This document shows positions 9,989-64,000 of a DNA stretch of 64,000 nt, one piece after another. The translations under genes and the position numbers were made by a program. The stretch lies in assembly GCA_039881145.1 (NCBI GenBank), contig JAYKKI010000013.1, positions 41,807,501 to 41,871,500 on the forward strand, read 5' to 3'. The notes below the pieces were generated by a model that saw only the letters and a list, made by a program, of their open reading frames with translations, was not told the DNA's origin and made no database searches. The DNA comes from Druceiella hillmani (lineage: Eukaryota; Arthropoda; Insecta; Lepidoptera; Hepialidae). Position 1 is the first letter of the stretch. Each line of letters begins with the position of its first letter.

Positions 9989-10135
9989 TCAGGGAAACGA
10001 GGATCAGGTGAAGCCGCGATCCCTGCGTTTCACTTGGAGCATGAAGACGACGTCGTCTAGGGATCCCAACGAGATAATGGCTGAGATACGCAAGGTGCTC
10101 GATGCCAACAACTGCGACTATGAGCAGCGTGAGAG
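9989..10135 (+). CDS. par-1: par-1/MARK kinase, KA1 domain exon 1
   Basis: Encodes [16 protein letters not shown] and [18 protein letters not shown], the diagnostic start of the kinase-associated KA1 domain of Par-1/MARK Ser/Thr kinases. KA1 binds acidic membrane lipids and helps autoinhibit the kinase, which phosphorylates microtubule-associated proteins and acts in cell polarity. The acceptor AG at 9987-9988 fits the phase of the 60-bp exon upstream; an AG at 9991-9992 would also keep the KA1 frame but in phase 0. The donor is AG|gtgcgt and splits an Arg codon that the exon at 11742 completes. Kinase, UBA and spacer exons are not in the window apart from the 60-bp candidate. Confidence 0.95.
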
Positions 10136-11871
<1,736 letters not shown>

Positions 11872-12256: not shown

Positions 12257-12348
12257 TCTGTATTCATTCAAATAATTATAATTATTGAATGAATACAGAA
12301 TACATGAAACTAACGTCCTGTAATTACAGGACGTTAGTTTCATGTATT
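12257..12348. repeat. Two adjacent palindromes
   Basis: 12257-12299 is an inverted repeat with arms TCTGTATTCATTCAA and TTGAATGAATACAGA. It abuts a perfect 50-bp palindrome, 12299-12348, centred on GTAATTAC, with arms containing CATGAAACTAACGTCCT. The second palindrome supplies the start of the first unit of the tandem array that follows. Confidence 0.9.
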
Positions 12349-12830
12349 ATTCAACAAATGGAACTTTGAGTAATTAAAGCATGGTAGCAAAATATAAATT
12401 ATAAGTAAATATACATCCTGTAATTACAGGACGTTAGTTTCATGTATTATTCAACAAATGGAACTTTGAGCAATTAAAGCATGGTAGCAAAATATAAATT
12501 ATAAGTAAATATACATCCTGTAATTACAGGACGTTAGTTTCATGTATTATTCAACAAATGGAACTTTGAGCAATTAAAGCATGGTAGCAAAACATAAATT
12601 ATAAGTAAATATACATCCTGTAATTACAGGACATTAGTTTCATGTATTATTCAACAAATGGAACTTTGAGCAGTTAAAGCATGGTAGCAAAACATAAATT
12701 ATAACTAAATATATGCAAATTTATTTCAAATCATGAAACTAATATCCTGTAATTAAAGGATGTTAGTTTCATGTATTATTCAACAAATGGAACTTTGAGC
12801 AGTTAAAGCATGCTAGCAAAACATAAATTA
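12322..12830. repeat. 100-bp tandem repeat, 4 copies plus a diverged fifth
   Basis: GAACTTTGAG recurs at 12361, 12461, 12561 and 12661, exactly 100 bp apart, then at 12790 after a 29-bp expansion. Each unit begins with TCCTGTAATTACAGGAC, itself a short palindrome. The first four copies are nearly identical, pointing to recent expansion. Confidence 0.92.
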
Positions 12831-14428: not shown

Positions 14429-14738
14429 TTACATGGCCTACTTAATAACCACTTGAAATAATATGTGTTACATAGCTTACTTAATAACCACTTGAAATAA
14501 TATTTGTTACTTAGCTTACTTAATAATCAAATGAAATAATATTTGTTACATAGCTTACTTTATAACCAATTGAAATAATATTTGTTACGTAGCTTACTTA
14601 ATAACCAATTGAAATAATATTTGTTACGTAGCTTACTTAATAACCACTTGAAATAATATTTGTTACATAGTTTACTTAATAACCACTTGAAATAATATTT
14701 GTCACATAGCTTACTTAATAACCCACTTAAAATAATAT
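14429..14738. repeat. 39-bp tandem repeat, about 8 copies
   Basis: Units of the form TTACATAGCTTACTTAATAA followed by CCACTTGAAATAATATTTG. It ends about 50 bp before the acceptor of the last par-1 KA1 exon, so copy-number change would alter the distance between branch-point candidates and that exon. Confidence 0.92.
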
Positions 14739-14787
14739 CAATAATTGGTTAATGTATAGTAAAATATATTGAAACTTTGCTTTCCAG

Positions 14788-14846
14788 GGACAAGCATAGG
14801 ATTCAAGAATATTGCGTCGAAGATCGCCAACGAGCTAAAACTGTGA
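14788..14846 (+). CDS. par-1: par-1/MARK kinase, KA1 terminal exon with UGA stop
   Basis: Acceptor tgctttccag. The first two bases complete Gly, then TSIGFKNIASKIANELKL and a TGA stop at 14844-14846. This is the canonical C-terminus of MARK/Par-1 kinases, so the normal protein ends here. Codons after the stop stay open in the same frame for 612 codons, annotated separately. The stop is followed by C, the leakiest context for UGA. Confidence 0.95.
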
Positions 14847-14876
14847 CTGCCCCTGCACAGTGACACAGTGGAGGGC
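14844..14876 (+). promoter_or_regulatory. Candidate stop-codon readthrough signal
   Basis: UGA followed by CUG. A possible stem starts 3 nt after the stop: 14849-14852 pairs with 14873-14876, A14872 bulges, and 14853-14856 pairs with 14868-14871 (two G-U pairs), leaving an 11-nt loop. UGA-C and a nearby 3' structure are features of known readthrough stops in insects. The stem is short and was found by eye, so it is suggestive only. An AG at 14867-14868 in the same stretch could also serve as an in-phase splice acceptor. Confidence 0.45.
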
Positions 14877-16685
14877 GAGCGTCTTTACTTTCCCCGCTCG
14901 CTTCCCGCCTCGCGTTCCGTCGATATACACCCCTTCCTCTTGCAGACAAGCTTCGCCGAACCCTGCGCTACCCCAGCCGCTAGAAAGCTAGCTAAACGAC
15001 AGAGTCACCACATTGAGGTGGCCGAACCTTCCACTTCGATGTCCAAAACCCCAATGGACGACGTGCAGCCTTTGTCTCTTACATTCAAAAACCCAGCCGA
15101 ACCCATGGTAGAAATGCCAACAGATACGAGAAAGGAAACTAGAAAATCAGCTATGCCAAAACTGTCAAAGAATCGCAGTTTACTTGTTCAGGAGAACGAA
15201 GCAGATTTGGCATTCTATTTCGGAGAGAGAGATTCCAATCAGATTGATATCATGAAAAAGAACGGTGGACGGAACGTTAAATCGGCGCGGAAATATTTAA
15301 AGAATCAATCACTTGAAGAGCGAGCGGCGATTGATAGTGCTAGTAGCGACTTTTTTAACGTAAAATATGAGGCCGTAAAGACACAAGCTCCCAAAACCAA
15401 ACGTAGCGATTCGATACAGAAAGTGCCAAAGGAGGAGAAACACAGCAGTAGCAAAAAGAGGAGTGGTCAGAAGCGGCAGGATGACTTGGCAATCGACTAC
15501 ATTGAGCTGGCAAAGCGCTACAAAGAGAACGCCCGTCAAATGAGGTCTGTACTCAAACACTCTGTCACTGAGGGGGATTCGAGAATTTCAAAGCAGGTTC
15601 TAAAAGATAACGTTAATCGTAAGGAGGAGGAGAAATTGGTTAGGCGTAATACAGCCGAATGCACACTCAAGTTGCCAAAGCTTCACGTGGCTGAATCGAG
15701 CGATTATGAATTGGATAGTTCGGATTCGCCTTCACCCAGTCCCGCTTACGCCGCTAGAGAGCGTTTCAAAAATCAGTCAATGGCGAGTCGAGCCGAACGG
15801 GACGAAGCGTGGAAACCGGAGGTTCCAAAACGAATGGACAGTCTTACTGTTGATAGGCGACCCTCTACGAAGCGTGATCGTAATGAGAGTGTTCGTCGGA
15901 ATGCTTCTTTTAACATGGATTCTGATTTGCAAGTGGCGTACGATGAGAGTTTGAAATTTAGCACAGTAAGTGGTTCGACACGGAGTTGTAATACTGCGAG
16001 GACGCCATTGTTAAATACACGCCGGGCTGCGAGACAGATTTCAGCTGAAGATATGGTGCAAGTCGCGAACGGAGGCGCTAGGAATAAGAACGGTAGTCTT
16101 AGACATTTTATCACAGTGGGAGACGATGGCTACGCGACTACTGGGTCATTGAGGCTTCACAGAGCAGCCAGAAGTGATTTTCGCATGTACGAAAGCGCAA
16201 GAAGAGCTGAAATGGTCAATAATCCCGTGTATTACATTCAAAAGACACCAGACGGGGATATGCAGCCAAGATCGAGTCTTTCCTTGAGGATCGATTCTTC
16301 AGATGATGCCAAAACGCTTACACCTTCTGCAACGATGGAACGTCGAACCGGAAAACCCACAAGTTCATCAAGCGAGAGTAAAAAGTCAAAGAGGCACCGA
16401 CGTGTGGATTATGTGTCGATCGATGATGAAATGGCTCCGAAATCGATATCAGGCGAGAAGGTTCCAAAACGATCGGCAAGGAAGGCCGAATCAAGTAAAG
16501 TGAAGTACCCAACGTGCGACTCGCTCAGTTCTGCTTCCCAGAATAGTTTGAGCAGCTGTCAGTGTCTCAGCATCGAGCCGCATCCGAAGGCGATGGAGCT
16601 GAGCGAGGTAAATCTATCAACATTCACCGGCGGCAGCACCGACTTCTCGGCAAAAGACAGCGTTCCCGAATCGTTTGACTTTTAG
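14847..16685 (+). CDS. Long in-frame open frame after par-1 stop (candidate C-terminal extension)
   Basis: 612 sense codons directly after the par-1 UGA, in the par-1 frame, ending at TAG. The first ATG is at 15039 (codon 65), yet the 64 codons before it look equally protein-like (for example LYFPRSLPASRS), which argues the frame is entered from upstream rather than started there. The product is basic and Ser/Arg/Lys-rich, predicted disordered, with no recognised domain. It has four K-N-x-S-[L/M] motifs (15168, 15300, 15768, 16086); the last, KNGS, fits the KXGS site that MARK kinases phosphorylate. Acidic/serine tracts (SSDYELDSSDSPSPSP) and an F-rich, acidic end follow. GC content is clearly above the flanks. 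It could be reached by UGA readthrough, or by splicing from 11860 to 14869 (dropping the last 18 KA1 residues). A separate gene starting at 15039 (548 aa) is the weaker alternative. Confidence 0.8.
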   Translation: MPLHSDTVEGERLYFPRSLPASRSVDIHPFLLQTSFAEPCATPAARKLAKRQSHHIEVAEPSTSMSKTPMDDVQPLSLTFKNPAEPMVEMPTDTRKETRKSAMPKLSKNRSLLVQENEADLAFYFGERDSNQIDIMKKNGGRNVKSARKYLKNQSLEERAAIDSASSDFFNVKYEAVKTQAPKTKRSDSIQKVPKEEKHSSSKKRSGQKRQDDLAIDYIELAKRYKENARQMRSVLKHSVTEGDSRISKQVLKDNVNRKEEEKLVRRNTAECTLKLPKLHVAESSDYELDSSDSPSPSPAYAARERFKNQSMASRAERDEAWKPEVPKRMDSLTVDRRPSTKRDRNESVRRNASFNMDSDLQVAYDESLKFSTVSGSTRSCNTARTPLLNTRRAARQISAEDMVQVANGGARNKNGSLRHFITVGDDGYATTGSLRLHRAARSDFRMYESARRAEMVNNPVYYIQKTPDGDMQPRSSLSLRIDSSDDAKTLTPSATMERRTGKPTSSSSESKKSKRHRRVDYVSIDDEMAPKSISGEKVPKRSARKAESSKVKYPTCDSLSSASQNSLSSCQCLSIEPHPKAMELSEVNLSTFTGGSTDFSAKDSVPESFDF

Positions 16686-17350
16686 AATCATTTTTTTTTT
16701 GCAAAGAAATATTAGTTCGGCGACACTTTTATACCTACAAAATATTATTAAAATTTAATGGATATTTAATAGGGATATGAAGTTTTTTATCGATTCATAA
16801 AAAATTTAAATTAACTTAATAAATATATAAAAAAATTAAAGACTGTCACTCTCGTGTCCCGTTTAGTTGCATCTGTCATCTTTCTGCCTGTACATTTTTG
16901 ATGAAACACAAAATTTTGTCTCCAGTGATAAAATAGTATAATAAATATGCAAGCGTATTGTATTAATTAATTAAATAATAATAATATTTAAAGAGAAATG
17001 TTAGCGGTCGTTCTTCTTGATGTTGCGCCGATACATCGACGCGGCCCTATTGAATTGTTTTGTAATGTAATTAAATAATAAAAAATAATTAAAAAATCTA
17101 TTATAATTACTATTATGTATAATTATTATTAATAGTTATTGATTGTATCGTATTCAAATCGACTCGACACAGTTGAAAATGTTTAAATTTTTTGCAAAAA
17201 ATAAATTAAAACGCAAGTTAAATGTCGATGAACGACGAAGGCAAACGGCAAATACAAAAGCAGATGAAATGAAATTATAATTAATAAACTGTAAAAGTAT
17301 ATTTAAGTGTAATTGGTATAGAAATCTAATAAATACAGAAAAATAAATGA
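16686..17350 (+). terminator. Likely 3' UTR and poly(A) signals of par-1
   Basis: AT-rich sequence after the TAG with several AATAAA hexamers, for example 16818-16823 and 16940-16945, and further ones near 17205-17345. Which is used cannot be told from sequence. Confidence 0.5.
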
Positions 17351-17521
17351 ATTAAATAATTATATCGATGATGTGGAAATATGATGTTCTTTGTCATTTT
17401 TCTAGAAATTTCTTTACAATTATGAAATGTGTATAAACTTGTTCAGAATAGAATGGATGTTCTCTTGTCTCCTTGTTTTTTTCCCAAATCATTATTAAAT
17501 AATTTTATACATATTATGTTT

Positions 17522-17540
17522 ACATACATACATATATACA

Positions 17541-17603
<63 letters not shown>
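17522..17603. repeat. (TA)n / TACATA microsatellite
   Basis: Dinucleotide tract preceded by ACATACATAC units. Confidence 0.97.
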
Positions 17604-17606
<3 letters not shown>

Positions 17607-18370
17607 ACTATTTATATATAGTAAACCAATACACAAACACACACAAAACAGCTTTTATTAGTAATAAATGAAAGTATCTGATAATTAATTTTTATTTTTT
17701 TTAACATTTTCTTTAATCCACCATGACATTTATGACAAAATGGAGGACATCTTAATCATAGATACTCAATTTTGAATTAACTGTCAAGCTAGTAATGTCA
17801 CTGTCACTAATAATACCATTACCAGACAATCGGATAATAATGTTACATTTTAGTTGCTCCGTAACATTGTGATGGAAAAATGATAGATCAAAATGCTATC
17901 TACCTTAATTTTTCATTTAATTTGGTGTTGAAAAACAAGTTAAATCTTTTTTTTTATAAAAAATTTACATTTTATTAAAAATATATTTTGAACTGTAATG
18001 GAAAATTTTTGTGGAATGGAGTATGACAGTGAAACAGTTTAAAGATGGATTAAAATAGAAATGCAGTGCACGGAAACAGAAAAAGTTTTAATTGAAGGTA
18101 AGTTTGAAAATAACGGTGAACTAGTAAAATAAGATTATCTCGAAATACTTTTCGATTCTAGATGAGTAACTTTTCTTGACAACACAGGTGTAACTGAAAA
18201 ATAATTCTCATATTAGTTTTGTTATTTAATTTAAAATATTAATAAAATTGATGGAATTTTACTAAGAAAGAAAATGATCAGAATTTTACAAAGAAAAGGA
18301 ATTTGGAAGAAATCTGTCGCCAAGCTTATCAGGCCTGTATGTAAATGGATAATAATACTGCATATATTAA
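17604..18370. other. Intergenic, nothing recognised
   Basis: AT-rich sequence with only short chance frames, up to the TTAA target site of the next element. Confidence 0.7.
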
Positions 18371-19033
18371 CAGTTTTAGTGCCATGGTTTTTTACTCATA
18401 TATACTTAAAAATGCCAATGAAATCTTTTGTTTTTGATGTCATTTACCCTTGTCTCGAAAAAACACTGTAACTCTTCCAAAAATTATCCAATTTTAATAA
18501 TTTTTTCGGTGTTTTCTTAAAAAAAACTTGACCAAGGATAATAAAATACAAAGAAAATTATAGAATTGTATATTGTGAAAAAAATTATAACAAAAACTGA
18601 AATCAAGGTCACATCGTCATTTTCGCAGTCCGGTACATCCTCCGTATCAGCAAAATAATTGTTATCGTCACTATTATCACTATTGCTCAAAATTTGCATT
18701 ACGCCAAATTGTGAGTGGACCACAATGTCACTCCCACTATCACTTTCTTCACAACTTGAAGAACGATAATTTTCACTTGAATTATTTTCATATTCCAACA
18801 TTATGGGTTAAAAATTTTCTTTTCCTCGATCCTTTTTATATTGTAATTAATAATAATATTATAATTTGAACTTTATGTACATACACGTAGAAAGATAAAA
18901 AATTAATGACGTGTGCGAGCGACTTCCCCTACCGCGCACTAAACAGCAACTGATTTCGCGAACGCCATCGTGCTCGTGGCAAATTTAGTTAGTATGCGCA
19001 CGAGTGCGATGGCGCTCGTCAGCACTCTAACGG
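18371..19033 (-). mobile_element. piggyBac-type deletion derivative, copy 1
   Basis: Flanked on both sides by TTAA (18367-18370 and 19034-19037), the piggyBac target. Read on the minus strand it starts CCGTTAGAGTGCTGACGAGC and ends with GGCACTAAAACTG, forming imperfect terminal inverted repeats. A subterminal inverted repeat around GAGCGCCATCGCACTCGT lies near the 5' end. Its sequence matches the element at 26191-26850 in the opposite orientation. At 663 bp it is far shorter than an autonomous piggyBac (about 2.4 kb or more); the transposase core is missing. Confidence 0.88.
18517..18801 (-). pseudogene. Acidic N-terminal ORF of piggyBac-like transposase, truncated
   Basis: 94 codons starting MLEYENNSSENYRSSSCEES, then a run rich in Ser/Asp (SDSGSD, SNSDNSDDNNYFADTEDVPD), the acidic composition typical of piggyBac transposase N-termini. 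After about residue 66 the frame enters unrelated hydrophobic codons, marking the internal deletion. None of the catalytic domain is present. The same start, with differences, is kept at 26420-26611. Confidence 0.6.
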
Positions 19034-45932: not shown

Positions 45933-46152
45933 CAATTAAATGAAACTACGTGATGTAGTATTATTTCTACTTTCTTTAATTTCTTTATCACAACCTAGGT
46001 TTCGTTGTATTGCAACATCTTCAGGTGGGCTATTAGCAAAGATCTTTGCTAATATTCCACCTGAAGATGTTGTAATACAACGAAAGCTAGGTCGTGGTAA
46101 AGAAATTAAAGAAAGTAGAAATAATACTACATCACGTAGTTTCATTTAATTG
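45933..46152. mobile_element. Complete palindromic foldback element
   Basis: 220-bp near-perfect palindrome centred between 46042 and 46043 on AAAGATCTTT. Arms begin CAATTAAATGAAACTACGTG. Because of the symmetry both strands carry a 69-codon open frame starting MKLRDVVLFLLSLISL. It abuts the tandem array of half-elements to its right. Confidence 0.92.
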
Positions 46153-47404
46153 TGAGAAAATTCATAGTTAAAAGATGATATTGTTTATAATGTTAAGAAT
46201 GGAATAGTTACAAAAGAAGTCTATTTAAGTGAGGGGTTTCAGGACCAACTGATATAGGGCTCTGTTACAGTTGCATACTCCATATTTTTTTGTAGATTTA
46301 AATTGAATATATTTGGCGTTAATCTTTGCTAATAGCCCACCTGAAGATGTTGTAATACAACGAAACATAGGTCGTGGTCAAGAACTTAAAGAAAGTAAAA
46401 ATAATACTACATCACATATTTTCATTTAATTGTGAGAAAATTCATAGTTAAAAGATGATATTGTTTATAATGTTAAGAATAGAATAGTTACCAAACAAGT
46501 CTATTTAAGTGAGGGGTTTCAGGACCAACTGATATAGGGCTGTGTTACAGTTGCATACTCCATATTTTTTTGTCGATTTAAATTGAATATATTTGGCGTT
46601 AATCTTTGCTAATAGCCCACCTGAAGATGTTGTAATACAACGAAACCTAGGTGTGGTAAAGAACTTAAAGAAAGTAAAAATAATACTACATCACGTAGTT
46701 TCATTTAATTGTGAGAAAATTCATAGTTAAAAGATGATATTGTTTATAATGTTAAGAATGGAATAGTTACAAAAGAAGTCTATTTAAGTGAGGGGTTTCA
46801 GGACCAACTGATATAGGGCTCTGTTACAGTTGCATACTCCATATTTTTTTGTAGATTTAAATTGAATATATTTGGCGTTAATCTTTGCTAATAGCCCACC
46901 TGAAGATGTTGTAATACAACGAAACATAGGTCGTGGTCAAGAACTTAAAGAAAGTAAAAATAATACTACATCACATATTTTCATTTAATTGTGAGAAAAT
47001 TCATAGTTAAAAGATGATATTGTTTATAATGTTAAGAATAGAATAGTTACAAAAGAAGTCTATTTAAGTGAGGGGTTTCAGGACCAACTGATATAGGGCT
47101 GTGTTACAGTTGCATACTCCATATTTTTTTGTCGATTTAAATTGAATATATTTGGCGTTAATCTTTGCTAATAGCCCACCTGAAGATGTTGTAATACAAC
47201 GAAACCTAGGTGTGGTAAAGAACTTAAAGAAAGTAAAAATAATACTACATCACGTAGTTTCATTTAATTGTGAGAAAATTCATAGTTAAAAGATGATATT
47301 GTTTATAATGTTAAGAATGGAATAGTTACAAAAGAAGTCTATTTAAGTGAGGGGTTTCAGGACCAACTGATATAGGGCTCTGTTACAGTTGCATACTCCA
47401 TATT
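46151..47404. repeat. About 280-bp tandem array (4.5 units) with two alternating types
   Basis: TGTGAGAAAATTCATAG recurs at 46151, 46431, 46710, 46990 and 47269, spaced 280, 279, 280, 279. Each unit joins one arm of the foldback element to a segment ending GTTGCATACTCCATATT. Two unit types alternate: one with CATAGGTCGTGGTC and CACATATTTT, the other with CCTAGGTGTGG and CACGTAGTTT. The real period is therefore a 559-bp dimer. Confidence 0.93.
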
Positions 47405-59265: not shown

Positions 59266-60290
59266 TGGGCCTCGATCGTTGCGGGCAATCGCGCCGTTCG
59301 AGTGAGTTGACGCTATACGTCAGCAACATAGCTGTTTCTCTTTCTAACGAATAGCATCGATCGAATGACTGTCTCGACAGCACGGTGACGCAGTACTTTA
59401 TACCGGGCTGCACGTCTTTATTATTATCGAATTGTAAAAATGAAATTATGTAAATAAATATTTTATACTATGTGAAAGTGATTTGATAATACTAATATTG
59501 AGATAGAATTTGAAAAAAGGTACTTAGTGTGGATCCTAAAAACGAAATCAATTTTTTTAATAAAAATAAATTTTGTTCACTTATATATGTGATACAATGG
59601 AATAAGGTCTTCGTTTTACTTTTGACTCTTAATAAACTATATAAAAAGCCTACAGCCGACACTACAAGGATACCTTTTCCAACCACATCGAGTTCAAACA
59701 AAACAATGTCTTTTAAGAATAGTTTGAAATTTAAAACTGCTCAGTGACTCGTTTTTAGACATAACATTATAGGTACTAACCAAATAAGTTGGTGATACAA
59801 AACAAAATTATTTACAACCAAAAAGGAAAACAAAACAATCTCCAATTCCCTTGATTTTATTGCTTTCTAGGCCCTCGCACACAGCGCAATAACGAACAGT
59901 TATATTGAATTATTATGAACAGTTATCAATTAAGACTGAATTATACAAATTAAACTCAACCAAACATCGCAAAATTGAACCAATACACACGCGCACGCAA
60001 CAAGCGGCAACCTGGGATCGCGTACTTGCGATCGCGCGCTTGATGGTACCCGTTATCTGCGGGTGATGTTAACCTGGCGGGGGAGGTGAGTGTCGCTTCT
60101 TTACGCAGTAATAGTTAGTATTATTTGCCTTTTGAGAGCATTTTGCGTACCAGAACACTTTTTCTGAGCAGTGAACAAAATTGAGCTGCAACGTTCGCGT
60201 TGGTGACTCTGAGCTCTCAGGTTCGGGTCGGTGACGCTTAATCCGGTAAACTCTGCTCCCTTCGTCATCGGCTGCACCCTGCGCACTTTT
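59266..60290. other. GC-richer intergenic patches, unidentified
   Basis: 59270-59420 and 59985-60290 are GC-rich relative to the window (for example GGGATCGCGTACTTGCGATC), without a convincing exon. 60290 marks the edge of the satellite. Confidence 0.5.
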
Positions 60291-63200
60291 TGATTAATGT
60301 ATTATTTGAGTATAATTTAATATCATACGCGAATGCTATTGTGTAATAATTCATGTGTATACAGTTAGTGTATAATATTTTATTTGAGAGTAGTTTGATA
60401 TAATACGCGTATGTTATTGTGGTATAATTCAAGTGTATACAGTTAGTGTATAATATTTTATTTGAGAGTAGTTTGATATAATACGCGAATGCTATTGTAT
60501 AATAATTCAAGTGTATACAGTTAGTGTATAATATTTTATTTGAGAGTAGTTTAATATAATACGCGAATGCTATTGTATAATAATTCAAGTGTATACAGTT
60601 AGTGTATAATATTTTATTTGAGAGTAGTTTAATATAATACGCGAATGCTATTGTGTAATAATTCAAGTGTATATAGTTAGTGTATAATATTTTATTTGAG
60701 AGTAGTTTGATATAATACGCGTATGTTATTGTGGTATAATTCAAGTGTATACAGTTAGTGTATAATATTTTATTTGAGAGTAGTTTGATATAATACGCGA
60801 ATGCTATTGTATAATAATTCAAGTGTATACAGTTAGTGTATAATATTTTATTTGAGAGTAGTTTAATATAATACGCGAATGCTATTGTATAATAATTCAA
60901 GTGTATACAGTTAGTGTATAATATTTTATTTGAGAGTAGTTTAATATAATACGCGAATGCTATTGTATAATAATTCAAGTGTATACAGTTAGTGTATAAT
61001 ATTTTATTTGAGAGTAGTTTAATATAATACGCGAATGCTATTGTGTAATAATTCAAGTGTATACAGTTAGTGTATAATATTTTATTTGAGAGTAGTTTAA
61101 TATAATACGCGAATGCTATTGTATAATAATTCAAGTGTATACAGTTAGTGTATAATATTTTATTTGAGAGTAGTTTAATATAATGTGCGTATGTCATTGT
61201 GTAATAATTCAAGTGTATACAGTTAGTGTATAATATTTTATTTAAGAGTAGTTTGATATAATACGCGTATGTTATTGTGGTATAATTCAAGTGTATACAG
61301 TTAGTATATAATATTTTATTTAAGAGTAGTTTGATATAATACGCGTATGTTATTGTGGTATAATTCAAGTGTATACAGTTAGTATATAATATTTGATTTA
61401 AGAGTAGTTTGATATAATACGCGTATGTTATTGTGGTATAATTCAAGTGTATACAGTTAGTGTATAATATTTTATTTAAGAGTAGTTTGATATAATACGC
61501 GTATGTTATTGTATAATAATTCAAGTGTATACAGTTAGTGTATAATATTTTATTTGAGAGTAGTTTGATATAATACGTGTATGTTATTGTGGTATAATTC
61601 AAGTTTATACAGTTAGTATATAATATTTTATTTGAGAGTATTTGATATAATGTGCGTATGTTATTGTGTAATAATTCAAGTGTATACAGTTAGTATATAA
61701 TATTTTATTTGAGAGTAGTTTGATATAATACGCGTATGTTATTGTGGTATAATTCAAGTGTATATAGTTAGTGTATAATATTTTATTTGAGAGTAATTTA
61801 ATATAATGTGCATATGTTATTGTGGTGTAATTCAAGTGTATATAGTTAGTGTATAATATTTTATTTGCGAGTAGTTTAATATAATACGCAAATACTACTG
61901 TGTAATAATTCAAGTGTATATAGTCAATGTATAATATTTTATTTGAGAGTAGTTTAATATAATACGCGTATGTTATTGTGTAATAATTCAAGTGTATACA
62001 GTTAGTGTATAATATTTTATTTGAGAGTAGTTTGATATAATACGCGTATGTTATTGTGGTACAATTCAAGTGTATATAGTTAGTGTATAATATTTTATTT
62101 GAGAGTAATTTAATATAATGTGCATATGTTATTGTGGTGTAATTCAAGTGTATATAGTTAGTGTATAATATTTTATTTGCGAGTAGTTTAATATAATACG
62201 CAAATACTACTGTGTAATAATTCAAGTGTATATAGTCAATGTATAATATTTTATTTGAGAGTAGTTTAATATAATACGCGTATGTTATTGTGTAATAATT
62301 CAAGTGTATACAGTTAGTGTATAATATTTTATTTGAGAGTAGTTTGATATAATACGTGTATGTTATTGTGGTATAATTCAAGTGTATACAGTTAGTGTAT
62401 AATATTTTATTTGAGAGTAGTTTAATATAATGTGCGTATGTTATTGTGTAATAATTCAAGTGTATACAGTTAGTATATAATATTTTATTTGACAGTATTT
62501 CATATAATGTGCGTATGTTATTGTGGTATAATTCAAGTGTATACAGTTAGTGTATAATATTTTAATTGCGAGTAGTTTAATATAATACGCAAATTCTACT
62601 GTGTAATAATTCAAGAGTATATAGTCAATGTATAATATTTTATTTGAGAGTAGTTTAATATAATACGCGTATGTTATTGTGTAATAATTCAAGTGTATAC
62701 AGTTAGTGTATAATATTTTATTTGAGAGTAGTTTGATATAATACGTGTATGTTATTGTGGTATAATTCAAGTGTATACAGTTAGTGTATAATATTTTATT
62801 TGAGAGTAGTTTAATATAATGTGCGTATGTTATTGTGTAATAATTCAAGTGTATACAGTTAGTATATAATATTTTATTTGAGAGTATTTCATATAATGTG
62901 CGTATGTTATTGTGGTATAATTCAAGTGTATACAGTTAGTGTATAATATTTTAATTGCGAGTAGTTTAATGTAATACGCAAATTCTACTGTGTAATAATT
63001 TAAGTGTATATAGTCAATGTATAATATTTTATTTGAGAGTAGTTTAATATAATACGCGTATGTTATTGTGTAATAATTCAAGTGTATACAGTTAGTGTAT
63101 AATATTTTAATTGCGAGTAGTTTAATGTAATACGCAAATTCTACTGTGTAATAATTCAAGTGTATATAGTCAATGTATAATATTTTATTTGAGAGTAGTT

Positions 63201-64000
63201 TAATATAATACGCGTATGTTATTGTGTAATAATTCAAGTGTATACAGTTAGTGTATAATATTTTATTTGAGAGTAGTTTGATATAATACGTGTATGTTAT
63301 TGTGGTATAATTCAAGTGTATACAGTTAGTGTATAATATTTTATTTGAGAGTAGTTTAATATAATGTGCGTATGTTATTGTGTAATAATTCAAGTGTATA
63401 CAGTTAGTATATAATATTTTATTTGAGAGTATTTCATATAATGTGCGTATGTTATTGTGGTATAATTCAAGTGTATACAGTTAGTGTATAATATTTTAAT
63501 TGCGAGTAGTTTAATGTAATACGCAAATTCTACTGTGTAATAATTCAAGTGTATATAGTCAATGTATAATATTTTATTTGAGAGTAGTTTAATATAATAC
63601 GCGTATGTTATTGTGTAATAATTCAAGTGTATACAGTTAGTGTATAATATTTTATTTGAGAGTAGTTTGATATAATACGTGTATGTTATTGTGGTATAAT
63701 TCAAGTGTATACAGTTAGTGTATAATATTTTATTTGAGAGTAGTTTAATATAATGTGCGTATGTTATTGTGTAATAATTCAAGTGTATACAGTTAGTATA
63801 TAATATTTTATTTGAGAGTATTTCATATAATGTGCGTATGTTATTGTGGTATAATTCAAGTGTATACAGTTAGTGTATAATATTTTAATTGCGAGTAGTT
63901 TAATGTAATACGCAAATTCTACTGTGTAATAATTTAAGTGTATATAGTCAATGTATAATATTTTATTTGAGAGTAGTTTAATATAATGTGCGTATGTTAT
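60291..64000. repeat. 78-bp AT-rich satellite, about 47 units, continues past window
   Basis: Units contain TTTATTTGAGAGTAGTTT, ATAATACGCG, ATTGTGGTATAATTCAAG and GTATACAGTTAGTGTATAAT. Spacing is 78 bp (for example 60431 to 60509), with occasional 77-bp units. The left part (to about 61600) is more uniform; the right part has a higher-order period of five units (389 bp), seen at junctions near 62457, 62846 and 63391-63782, with one seven-unit stretch (545 bp). Because 78 is a multiple of 3, minus-strand frames of up to 445 codons are open; these are not genes. Confidence 0.97.

Follow-up and report, generated by a model that had tools for sequence, protein, structure and literature searches.

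We propose that the stop codon of a par-1 gene is read through to yield a minor PAR-1 isoform with a 612-residue C-terminal tail, a reading to which we give a probability of roughly 0.7. The stop, a TGA followed by a C, is located at 14844-14846 on the + strand of the window, i.e. the whole stretch of 64,000 nucleotides that was analyzed. Two properties that characterize readthrough loci are found here. The stop context is leaky (UGA-C at 14844-14846), and the in-frame second open reading frame is under selection, as established for tail residues 103-612.

The end of par-1 and the frame beyond it

The polarity and tau kinase PAR-1/MARK has a central role, and its KA1 domain is usually considered the end of the protein. 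The exons that encode this domain, the stop and the sequence that follows it are located as follows.

9993..10135, + strand: par-1 exon, N-terminal part of the KA1 region, donor phase 2
11742..11860, + strand: par-1 exon, middle of KA1 (...RISG), donor phase 1
14788..14846, + strand: last canonical coding segment, GTSIGFKNIASKIANELKL then TGA
14844..14846, + strand: UGA stop with C as the +1 base, proposed readthrough codon
14847..16685, + strand: in-frame extension of 612 codons plus TAG (1839 nt), predicted to be disordered, net charge +22

The intron before the first of these exons is in phase 0 if the exon begins at 9993; a second CAG is present 4 bases upstream. The spliced segments 9993-10135, 11742-11860 and 14788-14843 were used as the KA1 query. 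This query matches positions 3-45 of the 45-position Pfam KA1 profile (E 9.3e-21). It also matches the solved chain of MARK1, 3ose_A (E 1.1e-56), which ends on the same leucine. An earlier note on this DNA had placed the canonical end of KA1 at the UGA, and the ends of both the Pfam profile and 3ose_A agree with this placement. Judging from this C-terminal KA1 sequence, which is closest to those of the MARKs, the gene can be assigned to MARK/PAR-1. The kinase and UBA domains, for which a kinase/UBA query gave no match within the 64-kb window, are expected upstream of it.

The KA1 domain thus stops here at the same residue as in the solved vertebrate MARK1. Three of the four distinct MARK sequences matched in the PDB end at the last aligned residue, and 1v5s_A ends 6 residues further. 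A long tail is absent from all four, a weak contrast given that these sequences are expression constructs. We also considered a recent nonsense mutation inside a longer protein. This is unlikely because KA1 and the solved MARK1 end at this very residue.

Past the TGA the same frame stays open for 612 codons, up to a TAG at 16683-16685, as had been noticed earlier. No other stop-to-stop frame of the 64-kb window is as long. The runner-up, of 474 aa (60265-61689), lies almost wholly within a tandem array. Assuming independent bases at the GC content of the tail, the probability of 612 open codons is about 3e-14. This value, together with the selection signature obtained with the homolog P0001 (see below), led us to reject a chance open frame. 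For the first 64 codons openness is weak evidence, as 12% of dinucleotide shuffles are open there too, and the coding evidence for this part is a single-sequence codon score. Compared with dinucleotide shuffles that stay open, codons 1-33 after the stop are coding-like with P 0.009 and codons 1-64 with P 0.003, in a small test whose score table was trained on codons 101-612 of the tail itself.

The start of the extension is free of ATG, in line with the earlier note. The first in-frame ATG is found at 15039, 64 codons on, and from 14847 to 15038 no ATG is present in any frame. This bears on the view that the tail belongs to a cistron or gene of its own, translated from an ATG at 15039 or further on by internal or downstream initiation. 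Such a view would agree with the listing of the three homologs P0001, P0002 and P0003 as proteins that each begin at Met and are not fused to KA1. However, a gene caller for which TGA is a stop would give the same listing either way. Moreover, the sequence is coding-like before the first ATG, in a stretch of 192 nt that has no ATG in all frames, and a single GC block runs on from the KA1 acceptor; both the coding score and the GC continuity disfavour a separate gene starting near 15039, which the earlier note had named as an outcome that would speak against its reading. The ATG at 15039 has a T at -3, which we take to be a weak initiation context. Finally, for a separate gene the match in frame with par-1 would be a matter of chance (1 in 3). 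We consider a separate gene very improbable.

Six segments measured between 14788 and 16685 have a GC content of 0.43 to 0.62, whereas both flanks are at 0.24. From this continuous high-GC block, the end of KA1 and the tail look like one exon. No AATAAA or ATTAAA is present within 14847 to 16685, the first such signals past the tail being at 16747 and 16818. The ordinary par-1 mRNA therefore probably carries the tail, notwithstanding variant poly(A) hexamers inside it (AGTAAA at 16377 and 16494, AATACA at 15648 and 16014).

Several repeats were recorded in the window. Two of them are in the last par-1 intron: a 39-bp repeat in about 8 copies (14429-14738), just 5' of the terminal exon, and a 100-bp unit in 4 copies with 98% match (12316-12713), probably a recent expansion. 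A 280-bp tandem unit is present in about 4.9 copies, 96% matching, at 46042-47404. About 48 copies of a 78-bp unit form a tandem array (60295-64000) that runs to the window end and coincides with a chain of long overlapping minus-strand open frames (60265-63869). On the minus strand, an open frame at 27186-27542 matches the Macro domain (Pfam PF01661, E 1.7e-11) and is part of an unrelated gene or mobile element.

Homologs of the tail and selection on its sequence

The closest homolog, P0001, is a protein of 512 aa from a 2844-base contig and spans tail residues 103-612. The two sequences are identical at 468 of 510 aligned residues (91%), and differ by 42 changes and one 2-codon indel, with no stop. 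The mean BLOSUM62 score of the 42 changes is +0.48, versus about -0.4 in neutral simulations, and +0.48 was reached by none of 300 such simulations at each of six substitution loads. The absence of stops is by itself weaker evidence, since 7% of the simulations at 60 substitutions are likewise without stop. At the level of sequence comparison, these data demonstrate protein-level selection on tail residues 103-612. It had been suggested that the frame be checked for breaks in close relatives; it is intact in one relative, P0001, at the protein level and from tail residue 103 onward.

Two distant homologs were detected, P0002 (628 aa, E 6e-22) and P0003 (849 aa, E 6e-18), with 32-34% identity. 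They are the only two matches at E <= 0.001 among 4408 candidates, which were proteins of about 604-1923 aa. Two further protein searches, with at least 8000 and 344 candidates, returned P0001 alone, although their length range included P0002 and P0003. These searches are thus insensitive to distant relatives, so that an absence from them carries little weight. Both P0002 and P0003 likely adjoin a par-1 gene. Their N-termini gave no convincing similarity to tail residues 1-102 in six comparisons (P 0.04 to 0.41), a low-power test because residues 103-250 fail in it too (P 0.50 and 0.66). A search for orthologous DNA across the stop found 0 relatives in viral and prokaryote genome collections, where few are expected. 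Taken as a whole, the coding character that had been ascribed to the extension is upheld by the codon score from the stop on, by the conservative changes relative to P0001 and by the distant homologs.

Decoding of the UGA

In the mechanism that we propose, the end of KA1 and the 612-codon frame would share the terminal exon of the par-1 mRNA. The majority of ribosomes would terminate at the UGA, giving the ordinary PAR-1 kinase. A minor fraction would decode the leaky UGA-C, perhaps aided by a hairpin about 21 nt downstream. The readthrough product would be PAR-1 with its KA1 intact, followed by a basic and largely disordered tail of 612 residues. Because KA1 is intact in this product, the tail would add to the kinase and replace nothing.

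14868..14908, + strand: hairpin, predicted to begin about 21 nt 3' of the stop

Among the 359 windows of 45 nt scanned in the tail in 5-nt steps, the one at 14867 has the lowest energy, and when 14866-14910 is shuffled, 7 of 500 versions are as stable (z -3.1). However, the longer piece of 120 nt (14847-14966) is unremarkable, with z -0.15 and 87 of 200 shuffles folding as well. The hairpin is only suggestive because the 45-nt piece was picked after seeing the fold and because its 120-nt context is unremarkable.

The tail could also be linked to par-1 by alternative splicing that skips the stop, and two acceptors would be candidates for this.

14869, + strand: possible alternative acceptor gacacag/tgg, phase 1
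14946, + strand: possible alternative acceptor ttgcag/aca, phase 0

Joined to the last KA1 donor, the acceptor at 14869 would drop the last 19 residues of KA1, the stop and the first 7 codons of the tail. It shares phase 1 with the donor at 11860 and has the same pyrimidine fraction as the canonical acceptor at 14788 (0.61). The acceptor at 14946, joined to a phase-0 donor before 9993, would replace the whole KA1 by the tail from codon 34. Of all acceptors scanned between 14788 and 15199 it has the highest pyrimidine fraction (0.83), and its phase 0 agrees with that of the intron before 9993, provided that the exon begins there. However, splicing from either KA1 donor (10135 or 11860) to this second acceptor is out of frame, and its phase-0 donor, in an exon before 9993, is putative. 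The stretch of 33 codons that separates the stop from 14946 is coding-like (P 0.009), an argument that hardly bears on 14869. For either acceptor, a match of splice phase is expected by chance 1 in 3. That P0002 and P0003 are not fused to KA1 also speaks against splicing, though weakly, as they are 2 matches among 4408 candidates and the searches are insensitive. In view of these points we regard a splicing origin as rather unlikely.

In principle, a UGA is also open to editing to UGG and to decoding as selenocysteine. Here, no SECIS element is present among the 7 Rfam matches (E <= 5) obtained for 14700-18500. In a D. melanogaster study, no sign of editing was seen at the 217 testable positions, about half of the A positions in its readthrough events (PMC3840789). 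Editing of the UGA to UGG or selenocysteine insertion is thus the least credible way past this stop. We infer that the tail is linked to par-1 by readthrough and not by splicing; the rate of readthrough and all functions of the tail discussed below are put forward in the same sense.

The tail and known insect extensions

Readthrough of par-1 has a precedent. Table 2 of Dunn et al. 2013 (PMC3840789) gives for D. melanogaster par-1 (FBgn0260934) a C-terminal extension of 696 nt at 2R:15370912-15371608, with a PhyloCSF of 654.90 and a predicted NLS. This kind of isoform is thus already described. The coding character and the readthrough proposed in the earlier note are supported, and its question of whether such an isoform is described is answered for the kind by the fly extension. 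Compared by this table entry alone, the fly extension belongs to the same gene by name, is located past a stop and is PhyloCSF positive, and its predicted NLS fits the basic character of the tail described here. The two differ in length (696 nt versus 1839 nt), and the table is silent on which par-1 stop is concerned and on whether par-1 was one of the extensions assayed with reporters. The par-1 readthrough literature, judged largely by title and abstract, yielded no version of 612 codons that has this core and this C-terminus.

According to the main text of the FlyBase paper, 328 genes are annotated with readthrough, the extensions measure from 4 to more than 1000 aa (mostly 8-300) and UGA is the commonest readthrough stop; par-1 is absent from this main text (PMC4528330). 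For bumblebees, 851 readthrough candidates are reported, with par-1 unnamed in the main text, and UGA-C is given as the favoured context (PMC7826183). Fly readthrough extensions are described as tending to disorder and as rich in short interaction motifs (PMC4999894), and many fly-mosquito extension pairs as being without visible similarity (PMC5100048). Our tail has in common with the Drosophila, Anopheles and Bombus catalogues the UGA-C, the selected in-frame second open reading frame and the disordered tail with conserved islands. At 612 residues it is longer than most FlyBase extensions and, unlike many fly-mosquito pairs, it keeps a near-invariant core in homologs at 32-34% identity. This strong core stands out, although the divergence of the homologs is undated. 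We therefore file the tail as a long, unusually conserved case of already known insect readthrough.

The conserved elements of the tail are located as follows.

15651..15653, + strand: first of five conserved R/KxxS/T sites, tail residue 269
15825..15860, + strand: conserved motif PKR[MIV]DSLTVDRR, tail residues 327-338
16035..16112, + strand: most conserved block, QISAEDMVQ[VI]AN[GC]GARNKNGSL[RC]HFI, 26 residues, tail residues 397-422
16668..16685, + strand: conserved C-terminus E[ST]FDF plus TAG

The other four R/KxxS/T sites are at tail residues 332, 340, 354 and 417. At all five sites a serine or threonine has R or K at -3 in each of the four sequences (the tail and P0001-P0003). The motif PKR-x-DSLTVDRR, the QISAEDMVQ block and the C-terminal [ST]FDF are common to P0002, P0003 and the tail. 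The E[ST]FDF end has the phi-x-phi-COOH form that we take to be that of a class II PDZ ligand.

Regarding its structure, the tail is predicted to be largely disordered. It comprises 69% disorder-promoting residues, with a net charge of +22. AlphaFold2, run with an alignment of 2 sequences, gave a mean pLDDT of 38.9; 8 of the 612 residues reach 70, and the best block corresponds to residues 221-230. No Pfam match above the cut-off was obtained for the tail or for P0001-P0003. Compared with the PDB, the tail gave an unconvincing best match (E 0.046), and a 4-row profile gave none up to E 10.

The sequence elements nevertheless point to possible functions. With its five basophilic sites the tail may be subject to phospho-regulation, its basic stretches hint at nuclear or RNA contact, and a PDZ protein could dock on the hydrophobic C-terminus. 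Autoinhibition by KA1 may also be altered by the tail, although this we only infer. A further reading, which we regard as rather unlikely, is that readthrough attaches to PAR-1 an ancient, regulated docking module that is kept across distant animals. Such a module would consist of the conserved core, the five basophilic phosphosites, which could serve 14-3-3 binding or kinase feedback, and the phi-x-phi PDZ ligand. If this is true, the leaky stop would set the fraction of the kinase that joins a PDZ scaffold or enters the nucleus. A conserved 612-residue readthrough tail would represent a little-noticed PAR-1 isoform with testable docking and localisation signals. Its conserved core provides a concrete probe for the tail in other arthropods, and for the question of why readthrough tails persist.
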